Below, piece after piece: positions 1 to 30,682 of a stretch of DNA of 64,000 bases. The stretch is from Novakomyces olei (Eukaryota > Ascomycota > Novakomycetes > Novakomycetales > Novakomycetaceae). The DNA is taken from assembly GCA_016906335.1 (NCBI GenBank), contig JADEYG010000003.1, positions 1,612,001 through 1,676,000 of the forward strand, read 5' to 3'. Under the pieces are notes generated by a model that saw only the letters and a list, made by a program, of their open reading frames with translations, ran no database searches and was not told the DNA's origin. Made by a program: the position numbers and the translations under genes. Within the stretch, counting starts at the first letter, position 1; every line of letters starts with the position of its first letter.

Positions 1-3000
1 GGTTGACCTATTCAATGCGGATTGCAAAGGACTCAAAGCGCTCTGTGAAGAATTAAACGACTCGGTTGACTTATTCAATGCAGAATGCAGCGGACTCAAC
101 GCACTCGTAGATGAATTAAACGACTTCTTAGTCTGGTCGGCGAGTGTTGTAGCACGGCTTGACTTATTCAATGCAGAATGCAGCGGACTCAATCCTGTCT
201 GTGAAGAATTAAACGACTCGGTTGACCTATTCAATGCAGAATGCAAAGGACTCAAAGCGCTCTGTGAAGAATTAAACGACTCGGTTGACCTATTCAATGC
301 AGAATGCAGCGGACTCGATGCGCTCGTCGATGAATTAAACGACTCGGTTGACCTATTCAATGCAGAATGCAAAGGACTCAACGCACTCGTAGATGAATTA
401 AACGACTTCTTAGACTGGTTGGCGAGTGTTGTAGCACCGCTTGACTTATTCAATGCGGATTGCAAAGGACTCAAAGCGCTCTGTAAAGAATTAAACGACT
501 CGGTTGACTTATTCAATGCAGATTGCAGCGGGCTCAACGCACTCGTGGATGAATTAAACGATTTCTTAGACTGGCCGGCGAGTGATTCTGCAGAGCTTGA
601 CTTATTCAATTCAGATTGCAAAGAACTCAAACCTGTCTGTGAAGAATTAAACGACTCAGTTGACTTATTCAATGCAGAATGCAGCGGCCTCAATCCTGTC
701 TGTGAAGAATTAAACGACTCGGTTGATTTATTCAATGCAGAATGCAAAGGACTCAAAGCGCTCTGTGAAGAATTAAACGACTCGGTTGACATATTCAATG
801 CAGAATGGAGCGGACTCGATGCGCTCGACGATGAATTAAACGACTCGGTTGACCTATTCAATGCAGATTGCAGCGGACTCAAACCTGTCTGTGAAGAATT
901 AAAGGACTCGCGTGATTTATTCAATGCAGAATGCAGCGGACTCAACGCACTCGTGGATGAATTAAACGACTTCTTAGACTGGCCGGCGAGTGATTCTGCA
1001 GAGCTTGACTTATTCAATGCAGATTGCAAAGGACTCAAAGCGCTCTGTGAAGAACTAAACGACTCGGTTGACTTATTCAATGCGGATTGCAGCGGACTCA
1101 AACCTGTCTGTGAAGAATTAAAGGACTCGCGTGATTTATTCAATGCAGAATGCAGCGGACTCAACGCACTCGTGGATAAATTAAACGACTTCTTAGACTG
1201 GCCGGCGAGTGATTCTGCAGAGCTTGACTTATTCAATGCAGATTGCAAAGGACTCAAAGCGCTCTGTGAAGAACTAAACGACTCGGTTGACCTATTCAAT
1301 GCGGATTGCAAAGGACTCAATCCTGTCTGTGAAGAATTAAACGACTCAGTTGACTTATTCAATGCAGATTGCAACGGCCTCAATCCTGTCTGTGAAGAAT
1401 TAAAGGACTCGCGTGATTTATTCAATGCAGAATGCAGCGGACTCAACGCACTCGTGGATAAATTAAACGACTTCTTAGACTGGCCGGCGAGTGATTCTGC
1501 AGAGCTTGACTTATTCAATGCGGATTGCAAAGAACTCAAAGCACTCTGTGAAGAATTAAACGACTCGGTTGACTTATTCAATGCAGATTGCAGCGGGCTC
1601 AACGCACTCGTGGATGAATTAAACGACTTCTTAGACTGGTTGGCGAGTGTTGTAGCACGGCTTGACTTATTCAATGCGGATTGCAAAGGACTCAAAGCGC
1701 TCTGTAAAGAATTAAACGACTCGGTTGACTTATTCAATGCAGATTGCAGCGGGCTCAACGCACTCGTGGATGAATTAAACGATTTCTTAGACTGGCCGGC
1801 GAGTGATTCTGCAGAGCTTGACTTATTCAATTCAGATTGCAAAGAACTCAAACCTGTCTGTGAAGAATTAAACGACTCGGTTGACTTATTCAATGCAGAA
1901 TGCAGCGGCCTCAATTCTGTCTGTGAAGAATTAAACGACTCAGTTGACCTATTCAATGCGGATTCCAAAGGACTCAATCCTGTCTGTGAAGAATTAAACG
2001 ACTCAGTTGACTTATTCAATGCAGATTGCAGCGGCCTCAATCCTGTCTGTGAAGAATTAAAGGACTCGCGTGATTTATTCAATGCAGAATGCAGCGGACT
2101 CAACGCACTCGTGGATAAATTAAACGACTTCTTAGACTGGCCGGCGAGTGATTCTGCAGAGCTTGACTTATTCAATGCAGATTGCAAAGGACTCAAAGCG
2201 CTCTGTGAAGAACTAAACGACTCGGTTGACCTATTCAATGCGGATTGCAAAGGACTCAAAGCGCTCTGTGAAGAATTAAACGACTCGGTTGACTTATTCA
2301 ATGCAGAATGCAGCGGACTCAACGCACTCGTAGATGAATTAAACGACTTCTTAGACTGGTCGGCGAGTGTTGTAGCACGGCTTGACTTATTCAATGCAGA
2401 ATGCAGCGGACTCAAAGCGCTCTGTGAAGAATTAAACGACTCGGTTGACCTATTCAATGCAGAATGCAGCGGACTCGATGCGCTCGTCGATGAATTAAAC
2501 GACTCGGTTGACCTATTCAATGCAGAATGCAAAGGACTCAACGCACTCGTAGATGAATTAAATGACTTCTTAGTCTGGTCGGCGAGTGTTGTAGCACGGC
2601 TTGACTTATTCAATGCAGAATGCAGCGGACTCAACGCACTCGTAGATGAATTAAACGACTTCTTAGTCTGGTCGGCGAGTGTTGTAGCACGGCTTGACTT
2701 ATTCAATGCAGAATGCAGCGGACTCAATCCTGTCTGTGAAGAAATAAACGACTCGGTTGACCTATTCAATGCAGAATGCAAAGGACTCAAAGCGCTCTGT
2801 GAAGAATTAAACGACTCGGTTGACTTATTCAATGCAGAATGCAGCGGACTCAAAGCGCTCTGTGAAGAATTAAACGACTCGGTTGACCTATTCAATGCAG
2901 AATGCAGCGGACTCGATGCGCTCGTCGATGAATTAAACGACTCGGTTGACCTATTCAATGCAGAATGCAAAGGACTCAACGCACTCGTAGATGAATTAAA

Positions 3001-6000
3001 TGACTTCTTAGTCTGGTCGGCGAGTGTTGTAGCACGGCTTGACTTATTCAATGCAGAATGCAGCGGACTCAATCCTGTCTGTGAAGAACTAAACGACTCG
3101 GTTGACCTATTCAATGCAGAATTCAAAGGACTCAAAGCGCTCTGTGAAGAATTAAACGACTCGGTTGACCTATTCAATGCGGATTGCAAAGGACTCAAAG
3201 CGCTCTGTAAAGAATTAAATGACTCGGTTGACCTATTCAATGCAGTATGCAGCGGACTCAACGCACTCGTAGATGAATTAAACGACTTCTTAGACTGGTT
3301 GGCGAGTGTTGTAGCACGGCTTGACTTATTCAATGCGGATTGCAAAGGACTCAAAGCGCTCTGTGAAGAATTAAACGACTCGGTTGACCTATTCAATGCA
3401 GAATGGAGCGGCCTCAATCCTGTCTGTGAAGAATTAAACGACTCGCGTGATTTATTCAATGCAGAATGCAGCGGCCTCAATCCTGTCTGTGAAGAATTAA
3501 ACGACTCGGTTGACCTATTCAATGCAGAATGCAAAGGACTCAAAGCGCTCTGTGAAGAATTAAACGACTCGGTTGACCTATTCAATGCAGAATGCAGCGG
3601 ACTCGATGCGCTCGTCGATGAATTAAACGACTCGGTTGACCTATTCAATGCAGAATGCAAAGGACTCAACGCACTCGTAGATGAATTAAATGACTTCTTA
3701 GTCTGGTCGGCGAGTGTTGTAGCACGGCTTGACTTATTCAATGCAGAATGCAGCGGACTCAACGCACTCGTAGATGAATTAAACGACTTCTTAGTCTGGT
3801 CGGCGAGTGTTGTAGCACGGCTTGACTTATTCAATGCAGAATGCAGCGGACTCAATCCTGTCTGTGAAGAAATAAACGACTCAGTTGACCTATTCAATGC
3901 AGATTGCAAAGGACTCAAAGCGCTCTGTGAAGAATTAAACGACTCGGTTGACCTATTCAATGCAGAATGCAAAGTACTCAAAGCGCTCTGTGAAGAATTA
4001 AACGACTCGGTTGACTTATTCAATGCAGAATGCAGCGGCCTCAATCCTGTCTGTGAAGAATTAAACGACTCGGTTGACTTATTCAATGCAGAATGCAGCG
4101 GCCTCAATCCTGTCTGTGAAGAATTAAACGACTCGCGTGATTTATTCAATGCAGAATGCAGCGGCCTCAATCCTGTCTGTGAAGAATTAAACGACTCGGT
4201 TGACCTATTCAATGCCGAATGCAGCGGACTCAAAGCGCTCTGTGAAGAATTAAACGACTCGGTTGACCTATTCAATGCAGTATGCAGCGGACTCAACGCA
4301 CTCGTAGATGAATTAAACGACTTCTTAGACTGGTTGGCGAGTGTTGTAGCACGGCTTGACTTATTCAATGCAGAATGCAGCGGACTCAATCCTGTCTGTG
4401 AAGAACTAAACGACTCGGTTGACCTATTCAATGCAGAATGCAGCGGACTCAATCCTGTCTGCGAAGAATTAAACGACTCGGTTGACCTATTCAATGCAGA
4501 ATGGAGCGGACTCGATGCGCTCGACGATGAATTAAACGACTCGGTTGACCTATTCAATGCAGATTGCAGCGGACTCAATCCTGTCTGTGAAGAATTAAAC
4601 GACTCGGTTGACCTATTCAATGCAGATTTCAGCGGACTCAATCCTGTCTGTGAAGAATTAGACGACTCGGTTGACCTATTCAATGCAGAATGCAGCGGAC
4701 TCAACGCACTCGTAGATGAATTAAACGACTTCTTAGTCTGGTCGGCGAGTGTTGTAGCACGGCTTGACTTATTCAATGCAGAATGCAGCGGACTCAATCC
4801 TGTCTGTGAAGAACTAAACGACTCGGTTGACCTATTCAATGCAGAATGCAAAGGACTCAAAGCGCTCTGTGAAGAATTAAACGAATCGGTTGACCTATTC
4901 AATGCAGAATGCAAAGGACTCAAAGCGCTCTGTGAAGAATTAAACGACTCGGTTGACCTATTCAATGCAGAATGCAGCGGACTCGATGCGCTCGTCGATG
5001 AATTAAACGACTTCTTAGACTGGTCGGCGAGTGTTGTAGCACGGCTTGACTTATTCAATGCAGATTGCAAAGGACTCAAAGCGCTCTGTGAAGAATTAAA
5101 CGACTCGGTTGACCTATTCAATGCAGAATGCAAAGGACTCAAAGCGCTCTGTGAAGAATTAAACGACTCGGTTGACCTATTCAATGCAGAATGCAAAGGA
5201 CTCAAAGCGCTCTGTGAAGAATTAAACGACTCGCGTGATTTATTCAATGCAGAATGCAAAGGACTCAAACCTGTCTGTGAAGAATTAAAGGACTCGCGTG
5301 ATTTATTCAATGCAGAATGCAGCGGACTCAACGCACTCGTGGATGAATTAAACGACTTCTTAGACTGGCCGGCGAGTGATTCCGCAGAGCTTGACTTATT
5401 CAATGCAGATTGCAAAGGACTCAAAGCGCTCTGTGAAGAACTAAACGACTCGGTTGACCTATTCAATGCGGATTGCAAAGGACTCAAAGCGCTCTGTGAA
5501 GAATTAAACGACTCGGTTGACCTATTCAATGCAGAATGCAAAGGACTCAAAGCGCTCTGTGAAGAATTAAACGACTCGGTTGACCTATTCAATGCAGAAT
5601 GCAAAGGACTCAAACCTGTCTGTGAAGAATTAAAGGACTCGCGTGATTTATTCAATGCAGAATGCAGCGGACTCAATCCTGTCTGTGAAGAACTAAACGA
5701 CTCGGTTGACCTATTCAATGCAGTATGCAGCGGACTCAACGCACTCGTAGATGAATTAAACGACTTCTTAGACTGGTTGGCGAGTGTTGTAGCACGGCTT
5801 GACTTATTCAATGCGGAATGCAAAGAACTCAAAGCGCTCTGTAAAGAATTAAACGACTCGGTTGACTTATTCAATGCAGAATGCAGCGGACTCAAAGCGC
5901 TCTGTGAAGAATTAAACGACTCGGTTGACCTATTCAATGCAGAATGCAGCGGCCTCAATCCCCTCTGTAAAGAATTAAACGACTCAGTTGACTTATTCAA

Positions 6001-21000: not shown

Positions 21001-24000
21001 GGTTGACCTATTCAATGCGGATTGCAAAGGACTCAAAGCGCTCTGTGAAGAATTAAACGACTCGGTTGACCTATTCAATGCAGAATGCAAAGGACTCAAA
21101 GCGCTCTGTGAAGAATTAAACGACTCGGTTGACTTATTCAATGCAGAATGCAGCGGACTCAACGCACTCGTAGATGAATTAAACGACTTCTTAGTCTGGT
21201 CGGCGAGTGTTGTAGCACGGCTTGACTTATTCAATGCAGAATGCAGCGGACTCAATCCTGTCTGTGAAGAACTAAACGACTCGGTTGACCTATTCAATGC
21301 GGATTGCAAAGGACTCAAAGCGCTCTGTGAAGAATTAAACGACTCGGTTGACCTATTCAATGCAGAATGCAAAGGACTCAAAGCGCTCTGTGAAGAATTA
21401 AACGACTCGGTTGACTTATTCAATGCAGAATGCAAAGGACTCAAAGCGCTCTGTGAAGAATTAAACGACTCGGTTGACCTATTCAATGCAGAATGCAGCG
21501 GACTCGATGCGCTCGTCGATGAATTAAACGACTTCTTAGACTGGTCGGCGAGTGTTGTAGCACGGCTTGACTTATTCAATGCAGATTGCAAAGGACTCAA
21601 AGCGCTCTGTGAAGAATTAAACGACTCGGTTGACCTATTCAATGCAGAATGCAAAGGACTCAAAGCGCTCTGTGAAGAATTAAACGACTCGGTTGACCTA
21701 TTCAATGCAGAATGCAAAGGACTCAAAGCGCTCTGTGAAGAATTAAACGACTCGCGTGATTTATTCAATGCAGAATGCAAAGGACTCAAACCTGTCTGTG
21801 AAGAATTAAAGGACTCGCGTGATTTATTCAATGCAGAATGCAGCGGACTCAACGCACTCGTGGATGAATTAAACGACTTCTTAGACTGGCCGGCGAGTGA
21901 TTCCGCAGAGCTTGACTTATTCAATGCAGATTGCAAAGGACTCAAAGCGCTCTGTGAAGAACTAAACGACTCGGTTGACCTATTCAATGCGGATTGCAAA
22001 GGACTCAAAGCGCTCTGTGAAGAATTAAACGACTCGGTTGACCTATTCAATGCAGAATGCAAAGGACTCAAAGCGCTCTGTGAAGAATTAAACGACTCGG
22101 TTGACCTATTCAATGCAGAATGCAAAGGACTCAAACCTGTCTGTGAAGAATTAAAGGACTCGCGTGATTTATTCAATGCAGAATGCAGCGGACTCAATCC
22201 TGTCTGTGAAAAACTAAACGACTCGGTTGACCTATTCAATGCAGTATGCAGCGGACTCAACGCACTCGTAGATGAATTAAACGACTTCTTAGACTGGTTG
22301 GCGAGTGTTGTAGCACGGCTTGACTTATTCAATGCGGAATGCAAAGAACTCAAAGCGCTCTGTAAAGAATTAAACGACTCGGTTGACTTATTCAATGCAG
22401 AATGCAGCGGACTCAAAGCGCTCTGTGAAGAATTAAACGACTCGGTTGACTTATTCAATGCAGATTGCAGCGGGCTCAACGCACTCGTGGATGAATTAAA
22501 CGATTTCTTAGACTGGCCGGCGAGTGATTCTGCAGAGTTTGACTTATTCAATTCAGATTGCAGCGGACTCAAACCTGTCTGTGAAGAATTAAACGACTCG
22601 GTTGACTTATTCAATGCAGAATGCAGCGGCCTCAATCCTGTCTGTGAAGAATTAAACGACTCGGTTGACTTATTCAATGCAGATTGCAGCGGGCTCAATC
22701 CTGTCTGTGAAGAATTAAACGACTCGGTTGACTTATTCAATGCAGAATGCAGCGGACTCAACGCACTCGTAGATGAATTAAACGACTTCTTAGACTGGTT
22801 GGCGAGTGTTGTAGCACGGCTTGACTTATTCAATGCAGATTGCAAAGGACTCAAAGCGCTCTGTGAAGAATTAAACGACTCGGTTGACCTATTCAATGCA
22901 GAATGCAAAGGACTCAAAGCGCTCTGTGAAGAATTAAACGACTCGGTTGACCTATTCAATGCAGAATGCAAAGGACTCAAAGCGCTCTGTGAAGAATTAA
23001 ACGACTCGCGTGATTTATTCAATGCAGAATGCAAAGGACTCAAACCTGTCTGTGAAGAATTAAAGGACTCGCGTGATTTATTCAATGCAGAATGCAGCGG
23101 ACTCAACGCACTCGTGGATGAATTAAACGACTTCTTAGACTGGCCGGCGAGTGATTCCGCAGAGCTTGACTTATTCAATGCAGATTGCAAAGGACTCAAA
23201 GCGCTCTGTGAAGAACTAAACGACTCGGTTGACCTATTCAATGCGGATTGCAAAGGACTCAAAGCGCTCTGTGAAGAATTAAACGACTCGGTTGACCTAT
23301 TCAATGCAGAATGCAAAGGACTCAAAGCGCTCTGTGAAGAATTAAACGACTCGGTTGACCTATTCAATGCAGAATGCAAAGGACTCAAACCTGTCTGTGA
23401 AGAATTAAAGGACTCGCGTGATTTATTCAATGCAGAATGCAGCGGACTCAATCCTGTCTGTGAAGAATTAGACGACTCGGTTGACCTATTCAATGCAGAA
23501 TGCAGCGGACTCAACGCACTCGTAGATGAATTAAACGACTTCTTAGTCTGGTCGGCGAGTGTTGTAGCACGGCTTGACTTATTCAATGCAGAATGCAGCG
23601 GACTCAATCCTGTCTGTGAAGAACTAAACGACTCGGTTGACCTATTCAATGCAGAATGCAAAGGACTCAAAGCGCTCTGTGAAGAATTAAACGAATCGGT
23701 TGACCTATTCAATGCAGAATGCAAAGGACTCAAAGCGCTCTGTGAAGAATTAAACGACTCGGTTGACCTATTCAATGCAGAATGCAGCGGACTCGATGCG
23801 CTCGTCGATGAATTAAACGACTTCTTAGACTGGTCGGCGAGTGTTGTAGCACGGCTTGACTTATTCAATGCAGATTGCAAAGGACTCAAAGCGCTCTGTG
23901 AAGAATTAAACGACTCGGTTGACCTATTCAATGCAGAATGCAAAGGACTCAAAGCGCTCTGTGAAGAATTAAACGACTCGGTTGACCTATTCAATGCAGA

Positions 24001-25930
24001 ATGCAAAGGACTCAAAGCGCTCTGTGAAGAATTAAACGACTCGCGTGATTTATTCAATGCAGAATGCAAAGGACTCAAACCTGTCTGTGAAGAATTAAAG
24101 GACTCGCGTGATTTATTCAATGCAGAATGCAGCGGACTCAACGCACTCGTGGATGAATTAAACGACTTCTTAGACTGGCCGGCGAGTGATTCCGCAGAGC
24201 TTGACTTATTCAATGCAGATTGCAAAGGACTCAAAGCGCTCTGTGAAGAACTAAACGACTCGGTTGACCTATTCAATGCGGATTGCAAAGGACTCAAAGC
24301 GCTCTGTGAAGAATTAAACGACTCGGTTGACCTATTCAATGCAGAATGCAAAGGACTCAAAGCGCTCTGTGAAGAATTAAACGACTCGGTTGACCTATTC
24401 AATGCAGAATGCAAAGGACTCAAACCTGTCTGTGAAGAATTAAAGGACTCGCGTGATTTATTCAATGCAGAATGCAGCGGACTCAATCCTGTCTGTGAAG
24501 AACTAAACGACTCGGTTGACCTATTCAATGCAGTATGCAGCGGACTCAACGCACTCGTAGATGAATTAAACGACTTCTTAGACTGGTTGGCGAGTGTTGT
24601 AGCACGGCTTGACTTATTCAATGCGGAATGCAAAGAACTCAAAGCGCTCTGTAAAGAATTAAACGACTCGGTTGACTTATTCAATGCAGATTGCAACGGA
24701 CTCAATCCTGTCCGTGAAAAATTAAACGACTCGGTTGACTTATTCAATGCAGAATGCAGCGGACTCAATCCTGTCTGTGAAGAATTAAACGACTCGGTTG
24801 ACTTATTCAATGCAGAATGCAGCGGACTCAATCCTGTCTGTGAAGAATTAAACGACTCGGTTGACTTATTCAATGCAGAATGCAAAGGACTCAAAGCGCT
24901 CTGTGAAGAATTAAACGACTTCTTAGACTGGTTGGCGAGTGTTGTAGCACGGCTTGACTTATTCAATGCAGAATGCAGCGGCCTCAATCCCCTCTGTAAA
25001 GAATTAAACGACTCGGTTGACTTATTCAATGCAGAATGCAGCGGACTCAAAGCGCTCTGTGAAGAATTAAACGACTCGGTTGACCTATTCAATGCAGAAC
25101 GCAGCGGACTCGATGCGCTCGTCGATGAATTAAACGACTTCTTAGACTGGTTGGCGAGTGTTGTAGCACGGCTTGACTTATTCAATGCAGTTTGCAAAGG
25201 ACTCAAAGCGCTCTGTGAAGAATTAAACGACTCGGTTGACCTATTCAATGCAGAATGGAGCGGACTCAATCCTGTCTGTGATGAATTAAACGACTCGGTT
25301 GACTTATTCAATGCAGAATGCAGCGGACTCAATCCTGTCTGTGAAGAATTAAACGACTCGGTTGACTTATTCAATGCAGAATGCAAAGGACTCAAAGCGC
25401 TCTGTGAAGAATTAAACGACTCGGTTGACTTATTCAATGCAGATTGCAACGGACTCAATCCTGTCCGTGAAAAATTAAACGACTCGGTTGACTTATTCAA
25501 TGCAGAATGCAGCGGACTCAATCCTGTCTGTGAAGAATTAAACGACTCGGTTGACTTATTCAATGCAGAATGCAGCGGACTCAATCTTGTCTGTGAAGAA
25601 TTAAACGACTCGGTTGACTTATTCAATGCAGATTGCAACGGACTCAATCCTGTCCGTGAAAAATTAAACGACTCGGTTGACTTATTCAATGCAGAATGCA
25701 GCGGACTCAATCCTGTCTGTGAAGAATTAAACGACTCGGTTGACTTATTCAATGCAGAATGCAAAGGACTCAAAGCGCTCTGTGAAGAATTAAACGACTC
25801 GGTTGACTTATTCAATGCAGATTGCAACGGACTCAATCCTGTCCGTGAAAAATTAAACGACTCGGTTGGCTTATTCAATGCAGATTGCAGCGGACTCAAT
25901 CCCCTCTGTAAAGAATTAAATGACACCTTA
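1..25930. repeat. 63/93-bp coding tandem repeat array (about 26 kb)
   Basis: The array is built from two related modules, 63 bp and 93 bp, mixed in irregular order. Array length implies between about 280 (all 93 bp) and 410 (all 63 bp) units, probably near 350-390. All unit lengths are multiples of three, so frames never slip. Copies differ at a small set of sites, and large higher-order blocks recur almost unchanged (for example, markers at 8326 and 10897 are exactly 2,571 bp apart). The array runs off the left edge. Confidence 0.97.
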
Positions 25931-28900
25931 GACTGGTCGGCCAGTTTTGTTGTAGGGCACGACCTAGTTAACGTTGAATTAAACCCTTCCACGGACTGGT
26001 CGGCCAGTTCTTGGTCGGCCAGTTCTTGGTCGGCCAGTTCAGTTGTAGGGCTCGACCTATTTAATGCTGAATTAAACCCTTCCTTAGACTGGTCGGCGAG
26101 TTTTGTGGTAGGGCCCGACCGATTAAATGCAGAATTAAACCCTTCCTTAGACTGGTCGGAGAGTGTTGTAGCAGGGATTGGCTTATTCACTTCAGATTCT
26201 AGCGGACTCAATCCGCTCTGTAAAAAATTAAATGACACCTTAGACTGGTCGGTCAGTTTTGTTGTAGGGCTTGACCTATTTAAAGTTGGATTAAATCCTT
26301 CCTCAGACTGGTCGGCAAGTTTTGTTGTAGGGCTCGACCTATTTAACGCTGACTGCTGAGGACTGATTCCCGTCTTCAACATATTACTAGAGCCGTTAGT
26401 CTCATCAACGCCATGTGTTGCTAAACTGAATTCGGTCTTTGAAGAACTAAACAATTTTTGAGACTGGCCGGTTATTATTGTTGTAGGACTCATTAAGGCG
26501 GTACTGTTCTCCTTATTTCCGATTAAATGTGGAGAACTAGTTTCAAGATATTCAAGGGAAAAAGACATGCTTGCTTTGTGGGTTACTGATGGAGTAGATA
26601 TGACTGCAATGGTCATAGGTGATATGAAGGCATAGGTCATGTTGCGCATAGAAGCAATTTTTTCTGAGCCAAGTAGAGATTGAGCAGATATGGATTCTAA
26701 AGTCGACTTGGAGTTGTGTCCAAAAGAGATAGTTGTAGATACGCCAGAAAGCATATTCGAAACATTGGCATTGGGCCAATAGTTGTTTATGACACTTGTT
26801 AAGGGGGATTTTATACTTTCAGTCTTAAGATTTGCCTTTTTACCGATGAACGGAAGAGACAAAATACCAGTAGACCCGATAGAAAAGGATTCATTAAGAT
26901 TGTCGGCGTTATGTCTGATTACCGCGGATAAAGCATCAACAGAAACAGTCTTTGAAGAAGCATTCAGCATTCCTCCGAGTGACGCTTGCACTGAAAGCCC
27001 CGGTTCTATTGCAGTTGAAGAATTTCGGTGTGGCTTGGTAGGCTGATTGGCCAAACTAAGATTTTTCAAGACCGCGGCGGACACAGCTTTTGTCGGAATG
27101 AAATCGTGCACTGTAGTCTCTTGAATCGAGTTCGCTCGGCCCGTCCCATCAGGTCGCGTATTGACTTTAGATTCGGGAACCGAACCAAGTGTAGTTTCGG
27201 TACTTGAGTTAGTAGGGCCTAGAATGTGCTCCGTGAGAGGCAAATCAATAGCCAGATTGCTGATTCCTGCTTTCGCGTCCTTTTCTACTGTTATTGAACT
27301 GGCAGTAGCACTTGTCAAAGGAGTCAAAGTACTATTTCCGCCATGGCTCTTCAAAGCCTTTTCGACAGGATTGGGATCAAGTTCAACATCAACCCTTTCC
27401 TCGCTCTTATTTCCCGTCTGTTCAAAGTCTAACCAGTCGGAAGTCTCGCCCGTTGTCCAGACCGCTTGGCTCTCGGGCCCACTCGGGCGTCCAAGCCAGA
27501 GCTCATTGTTCCCATTTATACTATTTTCCCTGCTTGATCCGTGATCTGCTGCGGCCTCTGCGTCTTTCTCTGCTCCGCCATACGTTTTGGTCGTAATATT
27601 ATTTATTCTTTTTGGATTATTATATAATCCTTGATTCCCGGTATTAAGGGAAACAGCTGCGTCTGTTGCGAGCGGGTATGGCGGATTGGGAGCGTCTAAG
27701 GCGCTGCTTCTAATGTCCTCAGAACTGCCTTTACTGTCCGTGTGTAAACGGCTCCCGGACAGTTTGGTTCCGATAGCCTTAGCCGTTTTAGCAGACTCGC
27801 CACTTGTAACCACCGTCAGAGACTGCTGATCAGGATGGTTCGGGCTGCTAATTGCAGGCCCGGCCGGACTGCGGATAGCTTTTGTATAGATATCGCTGGC
27901 CATTGAGGACTGTGGGAATTGAAGACTATCGCCAACGTCCCTATTACGTGTCTCAATTTTGGTACCAAGATTGGCATTTTCTACTGATTTTTCCGTCGCT
28001 ATTGCTGTATTATCAACGGTGTTGCCGCTCTCATACCAATTATTGGCTTTTGGCTCGCTCGACGTGGTATATGACGTCGTTATGTTGGGCTTTTTAACAG
28101 TCTTTGCTGTAATTGTGCTCGTAGCTACTCTCGACAAGGGCACGGCTACTTCCTGGGTATTGTGAGCATTTTGATTGGTGGAAGGCCGGCTGCTTCCAGT
28201 ATTGAAGTTTAGTGTTTTCGGCTTTTTTAACACAACAGCGGCGGCTTCGTCTACGTTTGATACTGTTGGCAGAGTTTCTTTTTTAGCTTCATTTATTCCC
28301 GGCCGAGGAGATGAATGTAATGCCTCGGTGTGTTGATCGTCGAAGCGGTGATCAGTTTTTGGATGCCAATGTTCGTCGGACGCGTACATAGGGGGGGTGT
28401 TACCTTTATATACAAAGTGTCCAGGACTGTATGTATGTCCGGCACTTGTTGTTGTATCAAAACTCTTTAGGATTTCTGCTTTCGACGTGTCGACTTTTTT
28501 GGATTGCTCTGGCTTTTCGTTCGCTTTCGGTTCTGGCGTTTGCGAGTTTAAGCTTTGCCAATCCGCTTTTGCTTGATAGTTATATGTGTTTTTATTATCA
28601 CTTAGCTTTTCGGGGCCCTTAAAGTCGAATGCTGAATCCTGCGTCTTTGAACTTGGGTTCGAATTATTCTCAACCATGAAGTTTTGCTCACTGGCCGAAA
28701 CATTATCGTTTCCCAAAAAATGGTCGATGGCAATATCTATATTCCGATCGTTTGTCTTATCCGGAGTCTCTTTATTTTCCAAATCGTTTTCATGAATGAC
28801 ATCGATATCATTGTTGTTGTTGTTTTTATTACTGATTATGGGATCATGGTTTTTCTTTAAATCATTATCGATTTTGACACCATCCCCATTGCTATCCCGA

Positions 28901-29979
28901 TCGTTTGTCCTATCCCGAGTCTCTTTATTTTCCAAACCGTTTTCATGACTGAGATCGTTATCATTGATGTTGTTGTTTTTATTACTGTTTATGGGATCAT
29001 GGTTTTTCTTTAAATCATTATCGATTTTGACACCATCTCCATCTCTGTGCTGATCTTCAAGTATCCCAAACCTCGGATCATCCTTTTGTGGCCTGTAATT
29101 TTGATATCTCTCGTTTTTGCCCCCTTCTTTTTCTGCTAAAAAGTCCTGTTTGTTTTCGGACGTATCTGCACCAGCCGACTCTTCGTCTTCTTGAAATTTC
29201 CCAAAACTTTTTTCTTTATTACCATTGCCTTGGGTCGAAATTGGTTGGTTTTTGTTTGGTTTTTCTGAGCCAATTGTACCGTCGTCTAATTCTTTCCCGA
29301 CTGGTTTCGATCCTGTTCTTACCATTTTATTCTTAGGGTCAATATTTTGAGTCCCAGCTTTTTGGGCAGGCTTTCCTCGCTGTCTGTCATTGGGATATTT
29401 ATCGCTTCTGTGTGCATTAGTAGTCGATTTAGATTCTGGATCTTTGTCAGTGCTTCCGATTAAACTTGGTTTAATCTTGTCCTCTCCAAATGGCCCTTTT
29501 TGCCCGCTATCACGATCTTTACGATTATCATTCGCTTGATAATTATGTGGCGCTTCTGTTTTGTAGACTTGTATGTGCTTGCGGCTACCAGACTCATCTG
29601 GTTTTCTAAAGGGATCTTTGGCTTTTGAGTTTGGTTTTTTGACCTCGTTTGAGTAGGGATAGCGCAGTTTAGATAACACTTTCCTGGTGGCGCCATACGG
29701 TTTGACTTTTGTGAATTTGGTTTGATTGCGGATTGTGTGATTGCTGGAACTTGAATTGGACAATGAATTGTTTGCGCCAAATGTTTTATTCCAATAACGC
29801 TTTGGTCCAAAGGTATAATTGGAAATTGGCCCATTTATCTTAAATGGGCGCTTTGGAAACGGAAAGCTTTGGGCGGTTTTGTGCACTCGGTCGGCTGTTA
29901 CGGTTAGATGTGGACTCTTACCTGTCTGCAGAAGCCGCAGCAATACTATTGATGCCACAAGCCAAAACAGACTTTTCAT
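1..29979 (-). CDS. Giant repeat-rich secreted or cell-wall protein (partial, C-terminus beyond left edge)
   Basis: Reading down from ATG 29979-29977, I checked every in-frame triplet of the non-repetitive part and the repeat pattern and found no stop to position 1, so at least 9,993 codons. An in-frame TAA lies two codons upstream, fixing the start. Residues 1-20 look like a signal peptide (MKSLFWLVASIVLLRLLQTG). About residues 25-1207 are non-repetitive: Asn/Lys/Asp-rich with many NxS/T sequons, a 51-residue tandem duplication near 28741-29040, then Ser/Thr-rich. From about residue 1208 repeats begin: 21-residue units of the type ALNKSTESFNSSQSALSPL plus two residues, and 31-residue units carrying an extra ATTLADQ-type segment. 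Each unit holds NKS and NSS sequons. I recognise no ligand-binding domain (no PA14 or lectin fold by eye). A GPI signal, if any, lies off the window. Function inferred: cell-wall glycoprotein, adhesin or mucin-like. Confidence 0.88.
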   Translation of the reverse strand, partial: MKSLFWLVASIVLLRLLQTGKSPHLTVTADRVHKTAQSFPFPKRPFKINGPISNYTFGPKRYWNKTFGANNSLSNSSSSNHTIRNQTKFTKVKPYGATRKVLSKLRYPYSNEVKKPNSKAKDPFRKPDESGSRKHIQVYKTEAPHNYQANDNRKDRDSGQKGPFGEDKIKPSLIGSTDKDPESKSTTNAHRSDKYPNDRQRGKPAQKAGTQNIDPKNKMVRTGSKPVGKELDDGTIGSEKPNKNQPISTQGNGNKEKSFGKFQEDEESAGADTSENKQDFLAEKEGGKNERYQNYRPQKDDPRFGILEDQHRDGDGVKIDNDLKKNHDPINSNKNNNINDNDLSHENGLENKETRDRTNDRDSNGDGVKIDNDLKKNHDPIISNKNNNNNDIDVIHENDLENKETPDKTNDRNIDIAIDHFLGNDNVSASEQNFMVENNSNPSSKTQDSAFDFKGPEKLSDNKNTYNYQAKADWQSLNSQTPEPKANEKPEQSKKVDTSKAEILKSFDTTTSAGHTYSPGHFVYKGNTPPMYASDEHWHPKTDHRFDDQHTEALHSSPRPGINEAKKETLPTVSNVDEAAAVVLKKPKTLNFNTGSSRPSTNQNAHNTQEVAVPLSRVATSTITAKTVKKPNITTSYTTSSEPKANNWYESGNTVDNTAIATEKSVENANLGTKIETRNRDVGDSLQFPQSSMASDIYTKAIRSPAGPAISSPNHPDQQSLTVVTSGESAKTAKAIGTKLSGSRLHTDSKGSSEDIRSSALDAPNPPYPLATDAAVSLNTGNQGLYNNPKRINNITTKTYGGAEKDAEAAADHGSSRENSINGNNELWLGRPSGPESQAVWTTGETSDWLDFEQTGNKSEERVDVELDPNPVEKALKSHGGNSTLTPLTSATASSITVEKDAKAGISNLAIDLPLTEHILGPTNSSTETTLGSVPESKVNTRPDGTGRANSIQETTVHDFIPTKAVSAAVLKNLSLANQPTKPHRNSSTAIEPGLSVQASLGGMLNASSKTVSVDALSAVIRHNADNLNESFSIGSTGILSLPFIGKKANLKTESIKSPLTSVINNYWPNANVSNMLSGVSTTISFGHNSKSTLESISAQSLLGSEKIASMRNMTYAFISPMTIAVISTPSVTHKASMSFSLEYLETSSPHLIGNKENSTALMSPTTIITGQSQKLFSSSKTEFSLATHGVDETNGSSNMLKTGISPQQSALNRSSPTTKLADQSEEGFNPTLNRSSPTTKLTDQSKVSFNFLQSGLSPLESEVNKPIPATTLSDQSKEGFNSAFNRSGPTTKLADQSKEGFNSALNRSSPTTELADQELADQELADQSVEGFNSTLTRSCPTTKLADQSKVSFNSLQRGLSPLQSALNKPTESFNFSRTGLSPLQSALNKSTESFNSSQSALSPLHSALNKSTESFNSSQTGLSPLHSALNKSTESFNFSRTGLSPLQSALNKSTESFNSSQTRLSPLHSALNKSTESFNSSQTGLSPLHSALNKSTESFNFSRTGLSPLQSALNKSTESFNSSQSALSPLHSALNKSTESFNSSQTGLSPLHSALNKSTESFNSSQTGLSPLHSALNRSTESFNSSQSALSPLQTALNKSSRATTLANQSKKSFNSSTSASSPLRSALNRSTESFNSSQSALSPLHSALNKSTESFNSLQRGLRPLHSALNKSSRATTLANQSKKSFNSSQSALSPLHSALNKSTESFNSSQTGLSPLHSALNKSTESFNSSQTGLSPLHSALNKSTESFNFSRTGLSPLQSALNKSTESFNSLQSALSSLHSALNKSSRATTLANQSKKSFNSSTSALSPLHTALNRSTESFSSSQTGLSPLHSALNKSRESFNSSQTGLSPLHSALNRSTESFNSSQSALSPLHSALNRSTESFNSSQSALSPLQSALNRSTESFSSSQSALSPLQSALNKSSSAESLAGQSKKSFNSSTSALSPLHSALNKSRESFNSSQTGLSPLHSALNKSRESFNSSQSALSPLHSALNRSTESFNSSQSALSPLHSALNRSTESFNSSQSALSPLQSALNKSSRATTLADQSKKSFNSSTSASSPLHSALNRSTESFNSSQSALSPLHSALNRSTDSFNSSQSALSPLHSALNRSTESFSSSQTGLSPLHSALNKSSRATTLADQTKKSFNSSTSALSPLHSALNRSTESSNSSQTGLSPLHSALNKSRESFNSSQTGLSPLHSALNRSTESFNSSQSALSPLHSALNRSTESFNSSQSALSPLQSALNRSTESFSSSQSALSPLQSALNKSSSAESLAGQSKKSFNSSTSALSPLHSALNKSRESFNSSQTGLSPLHSALNKSRESFNSSQSALSPLHSALNRSTESFNSSQSALSPLHSALNRSTESFNSSQSALSPLQSALNKSSRATTLANQSKKSFNSSTSALSPLHSALNKSTESFNSSQTGLSPLQSALNKSTESFNSSQTGLRPLHSALNKSTESFNSSQTGLSPLQSELNKSNSAESLAGQSKKSFNSSTSALSPLQSALNKSTESFNSSQSALSPLHSALNKSTESFNSLQSALSSLHSALNKSSRATTLANQSKKSFNSSTSALSPLHTALNRSTESFSFSQTGLSPLHSALNKSRESFNSSQTGLSPLHSALNRSTESFNSSQSALSPLHSALNRSTESFNSSQSALSPLQSALNRSTESFSSSQSALSPLQSALNKSSSAESLAGQSKKSFNSSTSALSPLHSALNKSRESFNSSQTGLSPLHSALNKSRESFNSSQSALSPLHSALNRSTESFNSSQSALSPLHSALNRSTESFNSSQSALSPLQSALNKSSRATTLADQSKKSFNSSTSASSPLHSALNRSTESFNSSQSALSPLHSALNKSTESFNSSQSALSPLHSALNRSTESFNSSQSALSPLQSALNRSTESFSSSQTGLSPLHSALNKSSRATTLADQTKKSFNSSTSALSPLHSALNKSTESFNSSQSALSPLHSALNRSTESFNSSQSALSPLQSALNRSTESFSFSQTGLSPLHSALNKSRESFNSSQTGLSPLHSALNRSTESFNSSQSALSPLHSALNRSTESFNSSQSALSPLQSALNRSTESFSSSQTGLSPLHSALNKSSRATTLADQTKKSFNSSTSALSPLHSALNRSTESSNSSQTGLSPLKSALNRSTESFNSSQTGLSPLQSALNRSTESFNSSSSASSPLHSALNRSTESFNSSQTGLSPLHSALNRSTESFSSSQTGLSPLHSALNKSSRATTLANQSKKSFNSSTSASSPLHSALNRSTESFNSSQSALSPLHSALNRSTDSFNSSQSALSPLHSALNRSTESFSSSQTGLSPLHSALNKSSRATTLADQTKKSFNSSTSALSPLHSALNRSTESSNSSQTGLSPLKSALNRSTESFISSQTGLSPLHSALNKSSRATTLADQTKKSFNSSTSALSPLHSALNKSSRATTLADQTKKSFNSSTSALSPLQSALNKSTESFNSSQTGLRPLHSALNKSTESFNSSQTGLSPLDSALNKSRESFNSSQTGLSPLQSELNKSSSAESLAGQSKKSFNSSTNALSPLQSALNKSTESFNSSQSALSPLQSTLNKSTESFNSSQSALSPLQSALNKSSRATTLANQSKKSFNSSTSALSSLHSALNKSTESLNSSQTGLSPLQSTLNKSSESFNSSQTRLSPLHSALNKSSRATTLADQTKKSFNSSTSALSPLQSALNKSSRATTLADQTKKSFNSSTSALSPLHSALNKSRESFNSSQTGLSPLHSALNKSRESFNSSQSALSPLHSALNRSTESFNSSQSALSPLHSALNRSTESFNSSQSALSPLQSALNKSSRATTLADQTKKSFNSSTSALSPLHTALNRSTESFNSSQSALSPLHSALNRSTESFNSSQTGLSPLHSALNRSTESFNSSQSALSPLHSALNRSTESFNSSQSALSPLQSALNRSTESFSSSQSALSPLQSALNKSSSAESLAGQSKKSFNSSQTGLSPLHSALNKSRESFNSSQTGLRPLHSALNKSTESFNSSQTGLSPLHSALNKSSRATTLADQTKKSFNSSTSALSPLHSALNRSTESSNSSQTGLSPLKSALNRSTESFNSSQTGLSPLQSALNRSTESFNSSSSASSPLHSALNRSTESFNSSQTGLSPLHSALNRSTESFSSSQTGLSPLHSALNKSSRATTLANQSKKSFNSSTSALSPLHTALNRSTESFNSSQSALSPLKSALNRSTESFISSQTGLSPLHSALNKSSRATTLANQSKKSFNSSTSALSPLHTALNRSTESFSSSQTGLRPLHSALNKSTESFNSSQTGLRPLQSALNKSTESFNSLQRGLRPLHSALNRSTESFNSSQSALSPLHSALNKSTESFNSLQSALSSLHSALNKSSRATTLANQSKKSFNSSTSALSPLHTALNRSTESFSFSQTGLSPLHSALNKSRESFNSSQTGLSPLHSALNRSTESFNSSQSALSPLHSALNRSTESFNSSQSALSPLQSALNRSTESFSSSQSALSPLQSALNKSSSAESLAGQSKKSFNSSTSALSPLHSALNKSRESFNSSQTGLSPLHSALNKSRESFNSSQSALSPLHSALNRSTESFNSSQSALSPLHSALNRSTESFNSLQRGLRPLHSALNKSTESFNSSQTGLSTLHSALNRSTESFNSSQSALSPLHSALNRSTESFNSSQSALSPLQSALNKSSRATTLADQSKKSFNSSTSASSPLHSALNRSTESFNSSQSALSPLHSALNRSTDSFNSSQSALSPLHSALNRSTESFSSSQTGLSPLHSALNKSSRATTLADQTKKSFNSSTSALSPLHSALNRSTESSNSSQTGLSPLKSALNRSTESFISSQTGLSPLHSALNKSSRATTLADQTKKSFNSSTSALSPLHSALNKSSRATTLADQTKKSFNSSTSALSPLQSALNKSTESFNSSQTGLRPLHSALNKSTESFNSSQTGLSPLDSALNKSRESFNSSQTGLSPLQSELNKSSSAESLAGQSKKSFNSSTNALSPLQSALNKSTESFNSSQSALSPLQSTLNKSTESFNSSQSALSPLQSALNKSSRATTLANQSKKSFNSSTSALSSLHSALNKSTESLNSSQTGLSPLQSTLNKSSESFNSSQTRLSPLHSALNKSSRATTLANQSKKSFNSSTSALSPLHSALNKSTESFNSSQTGLSPLQSALNKSTESFNSSQTGLRPLHSALNKSTESFNSSQTGLSPLQSELNKSNSAESLAGQSKKSFNSSTSALSPLHTALNRSTESFNSSQSALSPLHSALNRSTESFNSSQTGLRPLHSALNKSRESFNSSQTGLRPLHSALNKSTESFNSSQTGLRPLQSALNKSTESFNSLQRGLRPLHSALNRSTESFNSSQSALSPLHSALNKSTESFNSLQSALSSLHSALNKSSRATTLANQSKKSFNSSTSALSPLHTALNRPTESFSSSQTGLSPLHSALNKSRESFNSSQTGLSPLHSALNRSTESFNSSQSALSPLHSALNRSTESFNSSQSALSPLQSALNKSSSAESLAGQSKKSFNSSTSALSPLHSALNKSRESFNSSQTGLSPLHSALNKSRESFNSSQSALSPLHSALNRSTESFNSSQSALSPLHSALNRSTESFNSSQSALSPLQSALNKSSRATTLADQSKKSFNSSTSASSPLHSALNRSTESFNSSQTGLRPLHSALNKSRESFNSSQTGLRPLHSALNKSTESFNSSQTGLRPLQSALNKSTESFNSLQRGLRPLHSALNRSTESFNSSQSALSPLHSALNKSTESFNSLQSALSSLHSALNKSSRATTLANQSKKSFNSSTSALSPLHTALNRPTESFSSSQTGLSPLHSALNKSRESFNSSQTGLSPLHSALNRSTESFNSSQSALSPLHSALNRSTESFNSSQSALSPLQSALNKSSSAESLAGQSKKSFNSSTSALSPLHSALNKSRESFNSSQTGLSPLHSALNKSRESFNSSQSALSPLHSALNRSTESFNSSQSALSPLHSALNRSTESFNSSQSALSPLQSALNKSSRATTLADQSKKSFNSSTSASSPLHSALNRSTESFNSSQSALSPLQSALNKSSSAESLAGQSKKSFNSSTSALSPLHSALNKSRESFNSSQTGLSPLHSALNKSRESFNSSQSALSPLHSALNRSTESFNSSQSALSPLHSALNRSTESFNSSQSALSPLQSALNKSSRATTLADQSKKSFNSSTSASSPLHSALNRSTESFNSSQSALSPLHSALNRSTDSFNSSQSALSPLHSALNRSTESFSSSQTGLSPLHSALNKSSRATTLADQTKKSFNSSTSALSPLHSALNRSTESSNSSQTGLSPLKSALNRSTESFNSSQTGLSPLQSALNRSTESFNSSSSASSPLHSALNRSTESFNSSQTGLSPLHSALNRSTESFSSSQTGLSPLHSALNKSSRATTLANQSKKSFNSSTSALSPLHTALNRSTESFNSSQSALSPLHSALNRSTESFNSSQSALSPLQSALNKSSRATTLADQSKKSFNSSTSASSPLHSALNRSTESFNSSQTGLRPLHSALNKSRESFNSSQTGLRPLHSALNKSTESFNSSQTGLRPLQSALNKSTESFNSLQRGLRPLHSALNRSTESFNSSQSALSPLHSALNKSTESFNSLQSALSSLHSALNKSSRATTLANQSKKSFNSSTSALSPLHTALNRPTESFSSSQTGLSPLHSALNKSRESFNSSQTGLSPLHSALNRSTESFNSSQSALSPLHSALNRSTESFNSSQSALSPLQSALNKSSSAESLAGQSKKSFNSSTSALSPLHSALNKSRESFNSSQTGLSPLHSALNKSRESFNSSQSALSPLHSALNRSTESFNSSQSALSPLHSALNRSTESFNSSQSALSPLQSALNKSSRATTLADQSKKSFNSSTSASSPLHSALNRSTESFNSSQSALSPLQSALNKSSSAESLAGQSKKSFNSSTSALSPLHSALNKSRESFNSSQTGLSPLHSALNKSRESFNSSQSALSPLHSALNRSTESFNSSQSALSPLHSALNRSTESFNSSQSALSPLQSALNKSSRATTLADQSKKSFNSSTSASSPLHSALNRSTESFNSSQSALSPLHSALNRSTDSFNSSQSALSPLHSALNRSTESFSSSQTGLSPLHSALNKSSRATTLADQTKKSFNSSTSALSPLHSALNRSTESSNSSQTGLSPLKSALNRSTESFNSSQTGLSPLQSALNRSTESFNSSSSASSPLHSALNRSTESFNSSQTGLSPLHSALNRSTESFSSSQTGLSPLHSALNKSSRATTLANQSKKSFNSSTSALSPLHTALNRSTESFNSSQSALSPLHSALNRSTESFNSSQTGLRPLHSALNKSRESFNSSQTGLRPLHSALNKSTESFNSSQTGLRPLQSALNKSTESFNSLQRGLRPLHSALNKSTESFNSSQTGLSTLHSALNRSTESFNSSQSALSPLQSALNRSTESFISSQTGLSPLHSALNKSSRATTLADQTKKSFNSSTSALSPLHSALNKSSRATTLADQTKKSFNSSTSALSPLQSALNKSTESFNSSQTGLRPLHSALNKSTESFNSSQTGLSPLDSALNKSRESFNSSQTGLSPLQSELNKSSSAESLAGQSKKSFNSSTNALSPLQSALNKSTESFNSSQSALSPLQSTLNKSTESFNSSQSALSPLQSALNKSSRATTLANQSKKSFNSSTSALSSLHSALNKSTESLNSSQTGLSPLQSTLNKSSESFNSSQTRLSPLHSALNKSSRATTLANQSKKSFNSSTSALSPLHSALNKSTESFNSSQTGLSPLQSALNKSTESFNSSQTGLRPLHSALNKSTESFNSSQTGLSPLQSELNKSNSAESLAGQSKKSFNSSTSALSPLQSALNKSTESFNSLQSALSPLQSALNKSSRATTLANQSKKSFNSSTSALSPLHTALNRSTESFNSSQSALSPLHSALNRSTESFNSSQTGLRPLHSALNKSRESFNSSQTGLRPLHSALNKSTESFNSSQTGLRPLQSALNKSTESFNSLQRGLRPLHSALNRSTESFNSSQSALSPLHSALNKSTESFNSLQSALSSLHSALNKSSRATTLANQSKKSFNSSTSALSPLHTALNRSTESFSSSQTGLSPLHSALNKSRESFNSSQTGLSPLHSALNRSTESFNSSQSALSPLHSALNRSTESFNSSQSALSPLQSALNRSTESFSSSQSALSPLQSALNKSSSAESLAGQSKKSFNSSTSALSPLHSALNKSRESFNSSQTGLSPLHSALNKSRESFNSSQSALSPLHSALNRSTESFNSSQSALSPLHSALNRSTESFNSSQSALSPLQSALNKSSRATTLADQSKKSFNSSTSASSPLHSALNRSTESFNSSQSALSPLHSALNRSTDSFNSSQSALSPLHSALNRSTESFSSSQTGLSPLHSALNKSSRATTLADQTKKSFNSSTSALSPLHSALNRSTESSNSSQTGLSPLKSALNRSTESFNSSQTGLSPLQSALNRSTESFNSSSSASSPLHSALNRSTESFNSSQTGLSPLHSALNRSTESFSSSQTGLSPLHSALNKSSRATTLANQSKKSFNSSTSALSPLHTALNRSTESFNSSQSALSPLHSALNRSTESFNSSQTGLRPLHSALNKSRESFNSSQTGLRPLHSALNKSTESFNSSQTGLRPLHSALNKSTESFNSSQSALSTLHSALNRSTESFNSSQSALSPLQSALNRSTESFISSQTGLSPLHSALNKSSRATTLADQTKKSFNSSTSALSPLHSALNKSSRATTLADQTKKSFNSSTSALSPLHSALNRSTESFNSSTSASSPLHSALNRSTESFNSSQSALSPLHSALNRSTESFNSSQTGLRPLHSALNKSRESFNSSQTGLRPLHSALNRSTESFNSSQSALSPLQSALNKSSRATTLANQSKKSFNSSTSALSPLHTALNRSTESFNSLQSALSPLQSALNRSTESFNSSQSALSPLNSALNRSTESFSSSQTGLSPLHSALNKSSRATTLADQTKKSFNSSTSALSPLHSALNRSTESFNSSTSASSPLHSALNRSTESFNSSQSALSPLHSALNKSTESFNSSQSALSPLHSALNRSTESFISSQTGLSPLHSALNKSSRATTLADQTKKSFNSSTSALSPLHSALNKSSRATTLADQTKKSFNSSTSALSPLHSALNRSTESFNSSTSASSPLHSALNRSTESFNSSQSALSPLHSALNKSSRATTLADQSKKSFNSSTSALSPLHSALNKSTESFNSSQSALSPLQSALNRSTESFSSSQSALSPLQSALNKSSSAESLAGQSKKSFNLSTSALSPLHSALNKSRESFNSSQTGLRPLQSALNKSTESFNSSQTGLSPLESALNRSTESFNSSQTELRPLHSALNKSTESFNSSQTGLSSLQSELNKSSSAESLAGQSKKSFNSSTSALSPLQSALNKSTESFNSLQSALSPLQSALNKSSRATTLANQSKKSFNSSTSALSPLQSALNKSTESFNSSQSALSSLQSALNKSSSAESLAGQSKKSFNLSTSALSPLHSALNKSRESFNSSQTGLRPLQSALNKSTESFNSSQTGLSPLQSALNRSTESFSSSQSALSPLQSALNKSSSAESLAGQSKKSFNLSTSALSPLHSALNKSRESFNSSQTGLSPLQSALNKSTESFSSSQSALSPLQSALNKSSSAESLAGQSKKSFNSSTSALSPLHSALNKSRESFNSSQTGLSPLQSALNRSTESFNSSSSASSPLHSALNMSTESFNSSQSALSPLHSALNKSTESFNSSQTGLRPLHSALNKSTESFNSSQTGLSSLQSELNKSSSAESLAGQSKKSFNSSTSALSPLQSALNKSTESFNSLQSALSPLQSALNKSSGATTLANQSKKSFNSSTSALSPLHSALNRSTESFNSSTSASSPLHSALNRSTESFNSSQSALSPLHSALNRSTESFNSSQTGLSPLHSALNKSSRATTLADQTKKSFNSSTSALSPLHSALNKSTESFNSSQSALSPLQSALNRST
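2..26359 (+). other. Antisense open frame through the repeats; probably not a gene
   Basis: The plus frame starting at position 2 is open from the left edge to a TGA at 26357-26359 and reads as units such as DLFNAECSGLNALVDELND. It contains no ATG codon anywhere in the window, so any start must lie off the left edge. It has no non-repetitive extension: it stops about where the minus-strand gene's unique region begins. The plus and minus frames are offset so that third codon positions coincide, meaning silent changes in one are mostly silent in the other. Read literally it would be a Cys/Leu/Asp-rich protein of over 8,700 residues. I consider it a by-product of the minus-strand gene, but transcription of this strand is not excluded. 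Confidence 0.6.
25931..26359. repeat. Degenerate edge of the tandem array
   Basis: Here units are diverged from the array consensus: shortened modules ending in a CCTACAACA/TGTTGTAGG core, and a 15-bp unit (GTTCTTGGTCGGCCA) in about three tandem copies near 26005-26040. On the minus strand this encodes LADQS/GFNS/LNRSSPTT-type segments joining the unique N-terminal region to the regular repeats. Divergence at one edge beside a homogenised core is the usual outcome of unequal exchange. Confidence 0.85.
28741..29040 (-). repeat. 153-bp tandem duplication in the N-terminal region of the giant gene
   Basis: Two adjacent segments offset by 153 bp (51 residues) both encode DGVKIDNDLKKNHDPI followed by SNKNNN and an ENxLENKET stretch. 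Landmark GGATCATGG occurs at 28841 and 28994. The repeat is in frame and lies outside the main array. Confidence 0.85.
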
Positions 29980-30682
29980 GATTTATTCCTGACGCATCTG
30001 GTGGCGAAAAGAAAATTTATAGAACCGAGTAAAGGTTTCGTTGATGCTTTTCCGGTTTAAAGTGAAATCCTGGATACATTTGATCCAATCTCTGGCTTTG
30101 TCCGAACGGTCAACAACCTGATGGAAATAGGTCTGTGAACAATGATCAAGCAGGCATAACAAATATTCGAATGGCTGAATGAGCGAGCACCCAATGATAC
30201 AAGAAATGAAATGAAAAAGCAGTTACATGTATGAGAACATTGGTCTGGACAAGTGCATTTAGTCCGGAGTGCCCTTGCTTGAAATCTATTTTTGATTATT
30301 TTTCCTTTCTATTTTCTTCCCCTTTTATTTTCCCCTTTCTTAATAGATTTAGTTTGTTTAAGCTAGCTACGTATAGCGGGTTCAATTACAAATTACGCCC
30401 TTTGTCGCAATAAACCAGCTTTGTACAGGTCAGTCGCACATTTAAGGGATTTTCTACCATTTGTGGTTTAAGGTCAAGCATGGTTCTGGTGTTTAAAGAC
30501 GTCTCGCTATCCCTATTTAAGTATAGTTCCGTTACTTTGACCTCCGACTCGGTCGGTTATCCCATATTTTATGAATAATTCCATAAGACATGTCTCAGAA
30601 CTTTTTTTAATTTATTAACAAAAATAATAAAATTTAAAACTAAAATTTTAATTTTCTTTTGTCTTATTTACTTAAATACTAA

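Follow-up and report, generated by a model that had tools for sequence, protein, structure and literature searches.

The window analysed here (64,000 nucleotides; C3:1612001-1676000) belongs to a genome of 14.34 Mb in 15 contigs and begins inside a giant minus-strand open reading frame (Table 1). As the first-pass annotation stated, this frame runs unbroken for 9,993 codons from the ATG at 29979 to the window edge, according to the ORF listing, and a stop lies in frame upstream, a TAA that starts six nucleotides 5' of the main ATG. A leftward extension in search of the minus-strand stop had also been proposed; in the same assembly this stop lies ~6.3 kb beyond the left window edge, at C3:1605662. 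The complete frame has 36,318 nt and encodes 12,105 aa with zero interrupting stops (calculated mass of ~1.28 MDa before sugars), and no N bases were present across the 94 kb examined around the gene. Judged from its sequence, this 36.3-kb frame is a real and apparently intronless gene. Its parts follow each other as a signal-like start, ~1,190 unique residues, an array of ~9,850 residues, a Ser/Thr tract, and a C-terminal domain of ~465 residues with 11 Cys that lies beyond the left edge of the window.

Table 1. Features of the giant gene in the window (positions in window coordinates).
Feature	Position	Strand	Remarks
Giant ORF, window part	1..29979	-	ATG start; 9,993 aa = residues 1-9993 of 12,105; open at left edge
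Array, window part	1..26235	-	Canonical units from residue 1249; ends at ~residue 11,101, outside the window
Antisense open frame	2..26359	+	8,785 codons; coincides with the array; considered spurious
Degenerate units leading into the array	26236..26409	-	
Unique charged N-terminal region, ~residues 23-1190	26410..29913	-	No Pfam family
Signal-peptide-like N-terminus, ~residues 1-22	29914..29979	-	Hydrophobic core FWLVASIVLLRLLQ; cleavage point a guess
Promoter-side segment common to both copies	29980..30598	-	96.5% identity, 620 aligned positions

The giant size proposed earlier was upheld by the 12,105 aa of the full frame. The largest fungal gene it is not: tex1 of Trichoderma virens, a giant fungal NRPS gene, spans about 62.8 kb (PMC11610996). 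Around the giant gene, the window contains ankyrin, Rtt106-like, two HODM-like, amino-acid transporter, P450, and GH5 genes (Pfam), together with aldo/keto reductase and MFS genes. The two HODM alpha-subunit-like genes (PF11927) form a divergent pair at 40781-41944 (-) and 42860-44074 (+) of the window, and simple sequence at 36233-36853 accounts for a minus ORF of (YIIVYYCILL)n type that looks spurious. CTG accounts for 110 of the 404 Leu codons in eight neighbour ORFs, so the ordinary reading of CTG seems favoured.

On the upstream side, a TATAAAT motif is found at about -42 from the ATG of the giant gene. Both copies of the gene carry the same in-frame 4-codon uORF (ATG CGT CAG GAA TAA; window 29980-29997), and three nucleotides separate its end from the main ATG. 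The signal-peptide-like start noticed in the first reading was recovered as the hydrophobic core FWLVASIVLLRLLQ, judged by eye, with a Kyte-Doolittle mean of 1.91 over residues 5-18. Residues 1-1160 contain zero Cys. The earlier estimate of ~1,200 non-repetitive codons agrees with the position of the first degenerate units (from ~residue 1190) and of the first canonical one (1249).

The array is built from near-identical units, and 418 unit starts were counted in it. A 21-aa unit follows 320 of them and a 31-aa unit 94; the remaining four lead into stretches of 104, 52, and 42 aa and into the tail of the protein. In the 21-aa unit, hydrophobic residues recur regularly at just four positions, F2 (97%), L9 (92%), L12 (100%), and L16 (100%), and with distances of 7, 3, and 4 the spacing F2-L9-(L12)-L16 looks heptad-like. 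Asn is also well kept in the C3 array, with N17 in 320/320 and N3 in 307/320 of the 21-aa units. Position 12 is Leu in 320/320 of these units despite a varying codon (CTG 194, TTG 116, CTC 10); the codons of L16 and N17 are invariant as well (320/320), so these two positions are uninformative on selection.

Two sequons per unit had been proposed, and at least two were found in 359 of the 414 units; the more than 600 potential N-glycosylation sites expected within the window came to 733 counted sequons. The complete protein holds 824, which is 2.4 times the average of 339 obtained from 200 residue shuffles, where the highest count was 381. Moreover, Ser and Thr together make up 37.7% of residues 1161-11130, where the calculated net charge is about +407 at pH 7, and 80.3% of the tract after the array (residues 11301-11640). 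The giant protein thus has Ser/Thr-rich tandem repeats, a trait looked for in adhesins, and combines them with dense potential glycosylation, as looked for in mucins. A kexin-processed repeat precursor was also considered and rejected, with zero KR and zero RR pairs in residues 1161-11130; KK pairs there number 94, about equal to the number of 31-aa units.

A frame on the plus strand is also open through the array, for 8,785 codons in the window and 9,901 codons stop to stop with the left flank included (C3:1608654-1638359), an extent that matches the array itself (~C3:1608677-1638235). The minus coding frame is free of stops in the unique N-terminal stretch and in the C-terminal domain, where the five other frames have 32-105 and 20-47 stops each, respectively. 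In the Ser/Thr tract, one separate antisense frame is also stop-free. Besides, when the array units were recoded synonymously at random 4,000 times, the antisense frame opened in 623 cases; such chance opening is not rare, so the long plus frame is no great surprise. We rejected a plus-strand gene, since only the minus frame stays open in both unique end parts, and regard the prospect of its being real as practically negligible. The warning that this frame would mislead was well placed: it covers the array only, and the unique ends are stop-rich in the other frames.

Variation among the repeat units did not separate sense from antisense, so it is the unique flanks that settle the strand. For 79 distinct 21-codon units, the silent/replacement counts were 221/313 in sense (45/135 expected) and 187/338 in the open antisense frame (39/141 expected), an excess of about twofold in both. 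Synonymous-codon scores were not decisive: in the N-region, sense scored -0.022 and all three antisense frames scored higher; in the array, sense scored 0.060 and the open antisense frame -0.100. The antisense translation aligned to the sense repeat protein with 29-35% identity among the matches listed; in part, the 63-bp unit may therefore be similar to its own complement.

The C-terminal domain and a second copy of the gene on another chromosome were overlooked in the first-pass annotation because both lie outside the window. A GPI-attachment signal had been suggested as something to look for; at the C-terminus, the ~465-residue domain is found instead, and by eye and hydropathy it has no GPI-type tail (Kyte-Doolittle mean of 0.25 for the last 20 residues). 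Membership in the GPI-anchored adhesin family was rejected on the grounds of this C-terminal domain without a hydrophobic tail. The 19-residue hydropathy mean exceeds 1.0 only at the start of the protein, near residue 1114, and in parts of the C-domain; it peaks at 1.62 at residue 11,991, inside the C-domain, so a membrane segment is conceivable there. With no clear transmembrane or GPI tail, the giant protein may simply be released. The GPI signal is the one point of the earlier proposal that was not borne out, whereas its strand, size, repeat regularity, sequons, lack of a known adhesin domain, and misleading plus frame all stand.

The second copy lies on the plus strand at C4:1381200-1409522 and has the same order of parts as the C3 gene. 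In the assembly, three frame changes, all within the array, break it up into four frames that overlap; these changes may reflect decay or residual sequencing error. Besides the gene, the duplicated unit takes in ~620 bp on its upstream side (96.5%) and ~200 bp on its downstream side (85%). Outside this unit, 34 kb upstream and 24 kb downstream at C3, set against 9 kb and 12 kb around the C4 copy, yielded only ~40-base matches. DNA identity in the N-terminal part is 97.3% over the first 3,600 nt; it declines irregularly along the way, with 99.7% for the initial 300 nt and ~95% close to the array. The two arrays have 0 of 21,623 60-mers and 1,480 30-mers in common; since no 60-mer is shared, we read this as array rebuilding since the copies split. 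The C4 array has 232 unit starts, with 95 21-aa and 96 31-aa units. In its 21-aa units, position 12 is Leu in 48/95 and Leu, Ile, or Met in 94/95, and position 16 is Phe or Leu.

At E<=1, no locus in the genome other than these two matched either of the unique end regions. A 300-aa array piece gave 209 matches against the genome; those listed lie in the same two genes, and further ones may lie elsewhere. Two retrotransposon-type ORFs lie upstream of the C4 copy and one downstream, which we take to be Ty3/gypsy- and Ty1/copia-like by domain make-up. Short GGGTTAGGGTTA stretches are seen ~400-550 bp downstream of this copy, 200-350 bp past the 3' duplication break.

When the copies were compared with gapped columns excluded from the codon counts, the N-region presented dN 0.024 and dS 0.039 over 1,200 codons (dN/dS 0.62) and the C-domain dN 0.168 and dS 0.112 over 466 codons (ratio 1.51). 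Protein identity in the C-domain is 73%, with a replacement in 124 of the 466 codons and silent changes only in 14. From rounded counts, the excess of replacements over silent changes in the C-domain gave a Fisher p of 0.016, and the N/S contrast with the N-region a p of 0.0057. The replacements cluster (50 adjacent pairs vs. 32.7 expected, a value reached in 0 of 5,000 shuffles), leaving DNA-identical blocks of up to 32 codons between the patches, and dN/dS in four consecutive windows was 1.22, 4.62, 2.24, and 0.99. By our estimate, the silent-only count about matches the N-region rate, so the C-domain need not be older. With one pair of copies, these patches are compatible both with diversifying selection and with local conversion from a diverged copy that has since been lost.

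No Pfam family was found at E<=0.1 for the N-terminal (residues 1-1193) or the C-terminal region, in line with the earlier remark that no known adhesin ligand domain is visible, and no PDB sequence matched the C-domain at E<=10. In the protein database, residues 1-1160 had 0 matches among 1,627 candidates of ~5,500-17,500 aa and the C-domain 0 matches among 5,142 candidates of ~263-838 aa, a search that would miss relatives outside these length limits. As a control, 8,000 candidates were scored for the neighbouring GH5 glucanase, and 2,431 of them proved to be relatives at E<=1e-60. Among the 120 matches listed, its best named one was Dipodascopsis uninucleata (56%), and the others included Limtongia smithiae (54%) and further Lipomycetaceae (Dipodascopsis tothii 54%, Lipomyces 49-53%). 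On this one gene, which is thin evidence, we place the organism in Saccharomycotina close to Lipomycetales, with moderate confidence. With 56% for the best named match of this control, fungi are present in the database, yet no close kin came up; since the nearest sampled kin are distant, the orphan status is weak evidence. A literature search, in which subscription papers are thinly covered and which is no proof of absence, found no such protein named. Two Nakaseomyces papers (among PMC4022394, PMC9548116, and PMC11542307) present adhesin pipelines that rely on homology at the N-terminus, on signal peptides and GPI signals, and on repeat motifs. A screen built on GPI signals would presumably miss the giant gene.

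Downstream of the C3 gene there are 6 ORFs of at least 80 aa; the largest is an MFS transporter (Pfam), and others resemble pieces of an AAA ATPase by eye. Downstream of the C4 copy there are 8 short ORFs of at least 80 aa, some of them transposon-like by eye. No immunity gene was recognised downstream of either copy, the largest C3 ORF having been scanned with Pfam and the rest judged at most by eye. Contigs C3 and C4 carry telomere-like GGGTTAGTTA arrays at both ends, and the giant gene starts 96,158 bp from the right end of C3, while the second copy ends 105,576 bp from that of C4. The telomere repeat is a 10-mer, GGGTTAGTTA with GGGTTAGTCA variants; it resembles the telomere repeat of Yarrowia lipolytica, although GH5 points to Lipomycetaceae. 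Four perfect TTAGGG units in a row occur at five places (C3:1564660, C7:1173828, C7:1205878, C9:1398827, and C15:424139), unlike the 10-mer at the contig ends.

We suggest that the gene potentially encodes a secreted, very heavily glycosylated stalk with a fast-diversifying C-terminal recognition head, a reading to which we give an about even chance. The chain would enter the secretory route through its N-terminal signal, and the ~9,850-residue array together with the Ser/Thr tract would form a long, sugar-coated, positively charged stalk. The charged N-terminal region or wall glycans could keep it at or near the cell surface, leaving the ~465-residue Cys-containing domain at the far end for recognition or binding. 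Array length and unit types would turn over through unequal exchange. We consider this reading the best one because it joins the signal, the sugar sites, the regularity of the units, and the divergence of the head.

The main rival is a mucin-like glycoprotein that is released or forms a matrix (slime, capsule, or biofilm), has no recognition role, and uses its C-domain for folding, oligomerisation, or maturation. Lipomycetaceae, where the neighbouring GH5 has its nearest named kin, commonly form capsules or slime, and an array rich in Ser/Thr and sequons, with a net positive charge and no clear GPI or transmembrane tail behind it, would suit such a product. Clustered, replacement-rich divergence would be odd for a purely structural domain, however, and we hold this alternative to be somewhat unlikely. 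A neutral or decaying repeat expansion, driven by slippage and unequal exchange and with little present function, appears improbable: the C3 copy keeps 12,105 codons open, and position 12 of its 21-aa unit stays Leu while the codon varies. The unchanged C-domain blocks of up to 32 codons also argue against decay, although recent ancestry or conversion would fit them too. What agrees with decay is the split of the C4 copy into four frames, the lack of a common 60-mer between the arrays, an N-region that is not strongly constrained overall (dN/dS 0.62), and silent vs. replacement unit variation raised about equally in sense and open antisense.

Assembly deserves separate attention. Exact repeats reach 2,619 bp inside the C3 copy and 3,075 bp inside the C4 copy, and 11,744 bases of the former sit in exact repeats of at least 1 kb. 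With exact repeats of 2.6-3.1 kb, the exact gene length hinges on the assembly, and the frame changes of the C4 copy, all three in its array, point the same way. Nevertheless, an array length or a whole gene created by expanded, collapsed, or misjoined repeats seems highly improbable when both chromosomes are capped by telomere-like repeats at both ends, the frame is open through 12,105 codons, and both unique end parts are found again, in unchanged order, at C4. We take the gene and its completion as secure, short of misassembly within the array.

If the gene is expressed as read, the fungus would secrete a very large protein (~1.28 MDa before sugars) in which the usual adhesin order is reversed, without a GPI-type end and with the fast-evolving domain C-terminal. 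The two copies are a natural test both of the pace at which giant coding arrays are renewed and of diversifying selection on the tip. A bolder version of the stalk with a recognition head is a eukaryotic giant-stalk, variable-tip design, where a glycosylated stalk of >1 MDa would carry a hypervariable head for self/non-self, mating-partner, or competitor recognition. Its head patches would diversify between paralogs faster than silent sites, with an array continually rebuilt; we see this version as unlikely.

Among known systems, the FLO, ALS, EPA, and AWP wall adhesins have long Ser/Thr-rich repeats. The giant protein resembles them in its signal-like start, its long S/T-rich in-frame repeats, and its paralogs on different chromosomes, but no GPI-type end, known N-terminal ligand domain, or Pfam match was seen in it, and its folded-looking domain is C-terminal. 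To our knowledge, it is far longer than members of these families. Secreted and membrane mucins share the tandem S/T-rich repeats and dense potential glycosylation; unlike them, the giant protein has a regular Leu/Phe pattern, two N-sequons in most units, and positive charge, and its end regions have no Pfam domain. Bacterial giant adhesins such as SiiE, a 595-kDa protein with 53 BIg domains (PMC5466336), also present a giant repeat stalk and, by analogy, a terminal head; by description, the giant protein differs from them in its eukaryotic signal-like start and in its 21/31-aa units instead of Ig domains. Bacterial polymorphic toxins (PMC3482391) likewise end a long chain with a variable C-terminal domain, but here there is no Pfam toxin family and no recognised immunity gene, and divergence is patchy rather than a replacement of the whole domain. 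Giant fungal NRPS genes such as tex1 (PMC11610996) are similar as very large fungal genes; they encode modular enzymes, whereas the end regions of our protein have no NRPS domain. The best match for the giant protein is a giant cell-surface stalk, not a conventional anchored adhesin.
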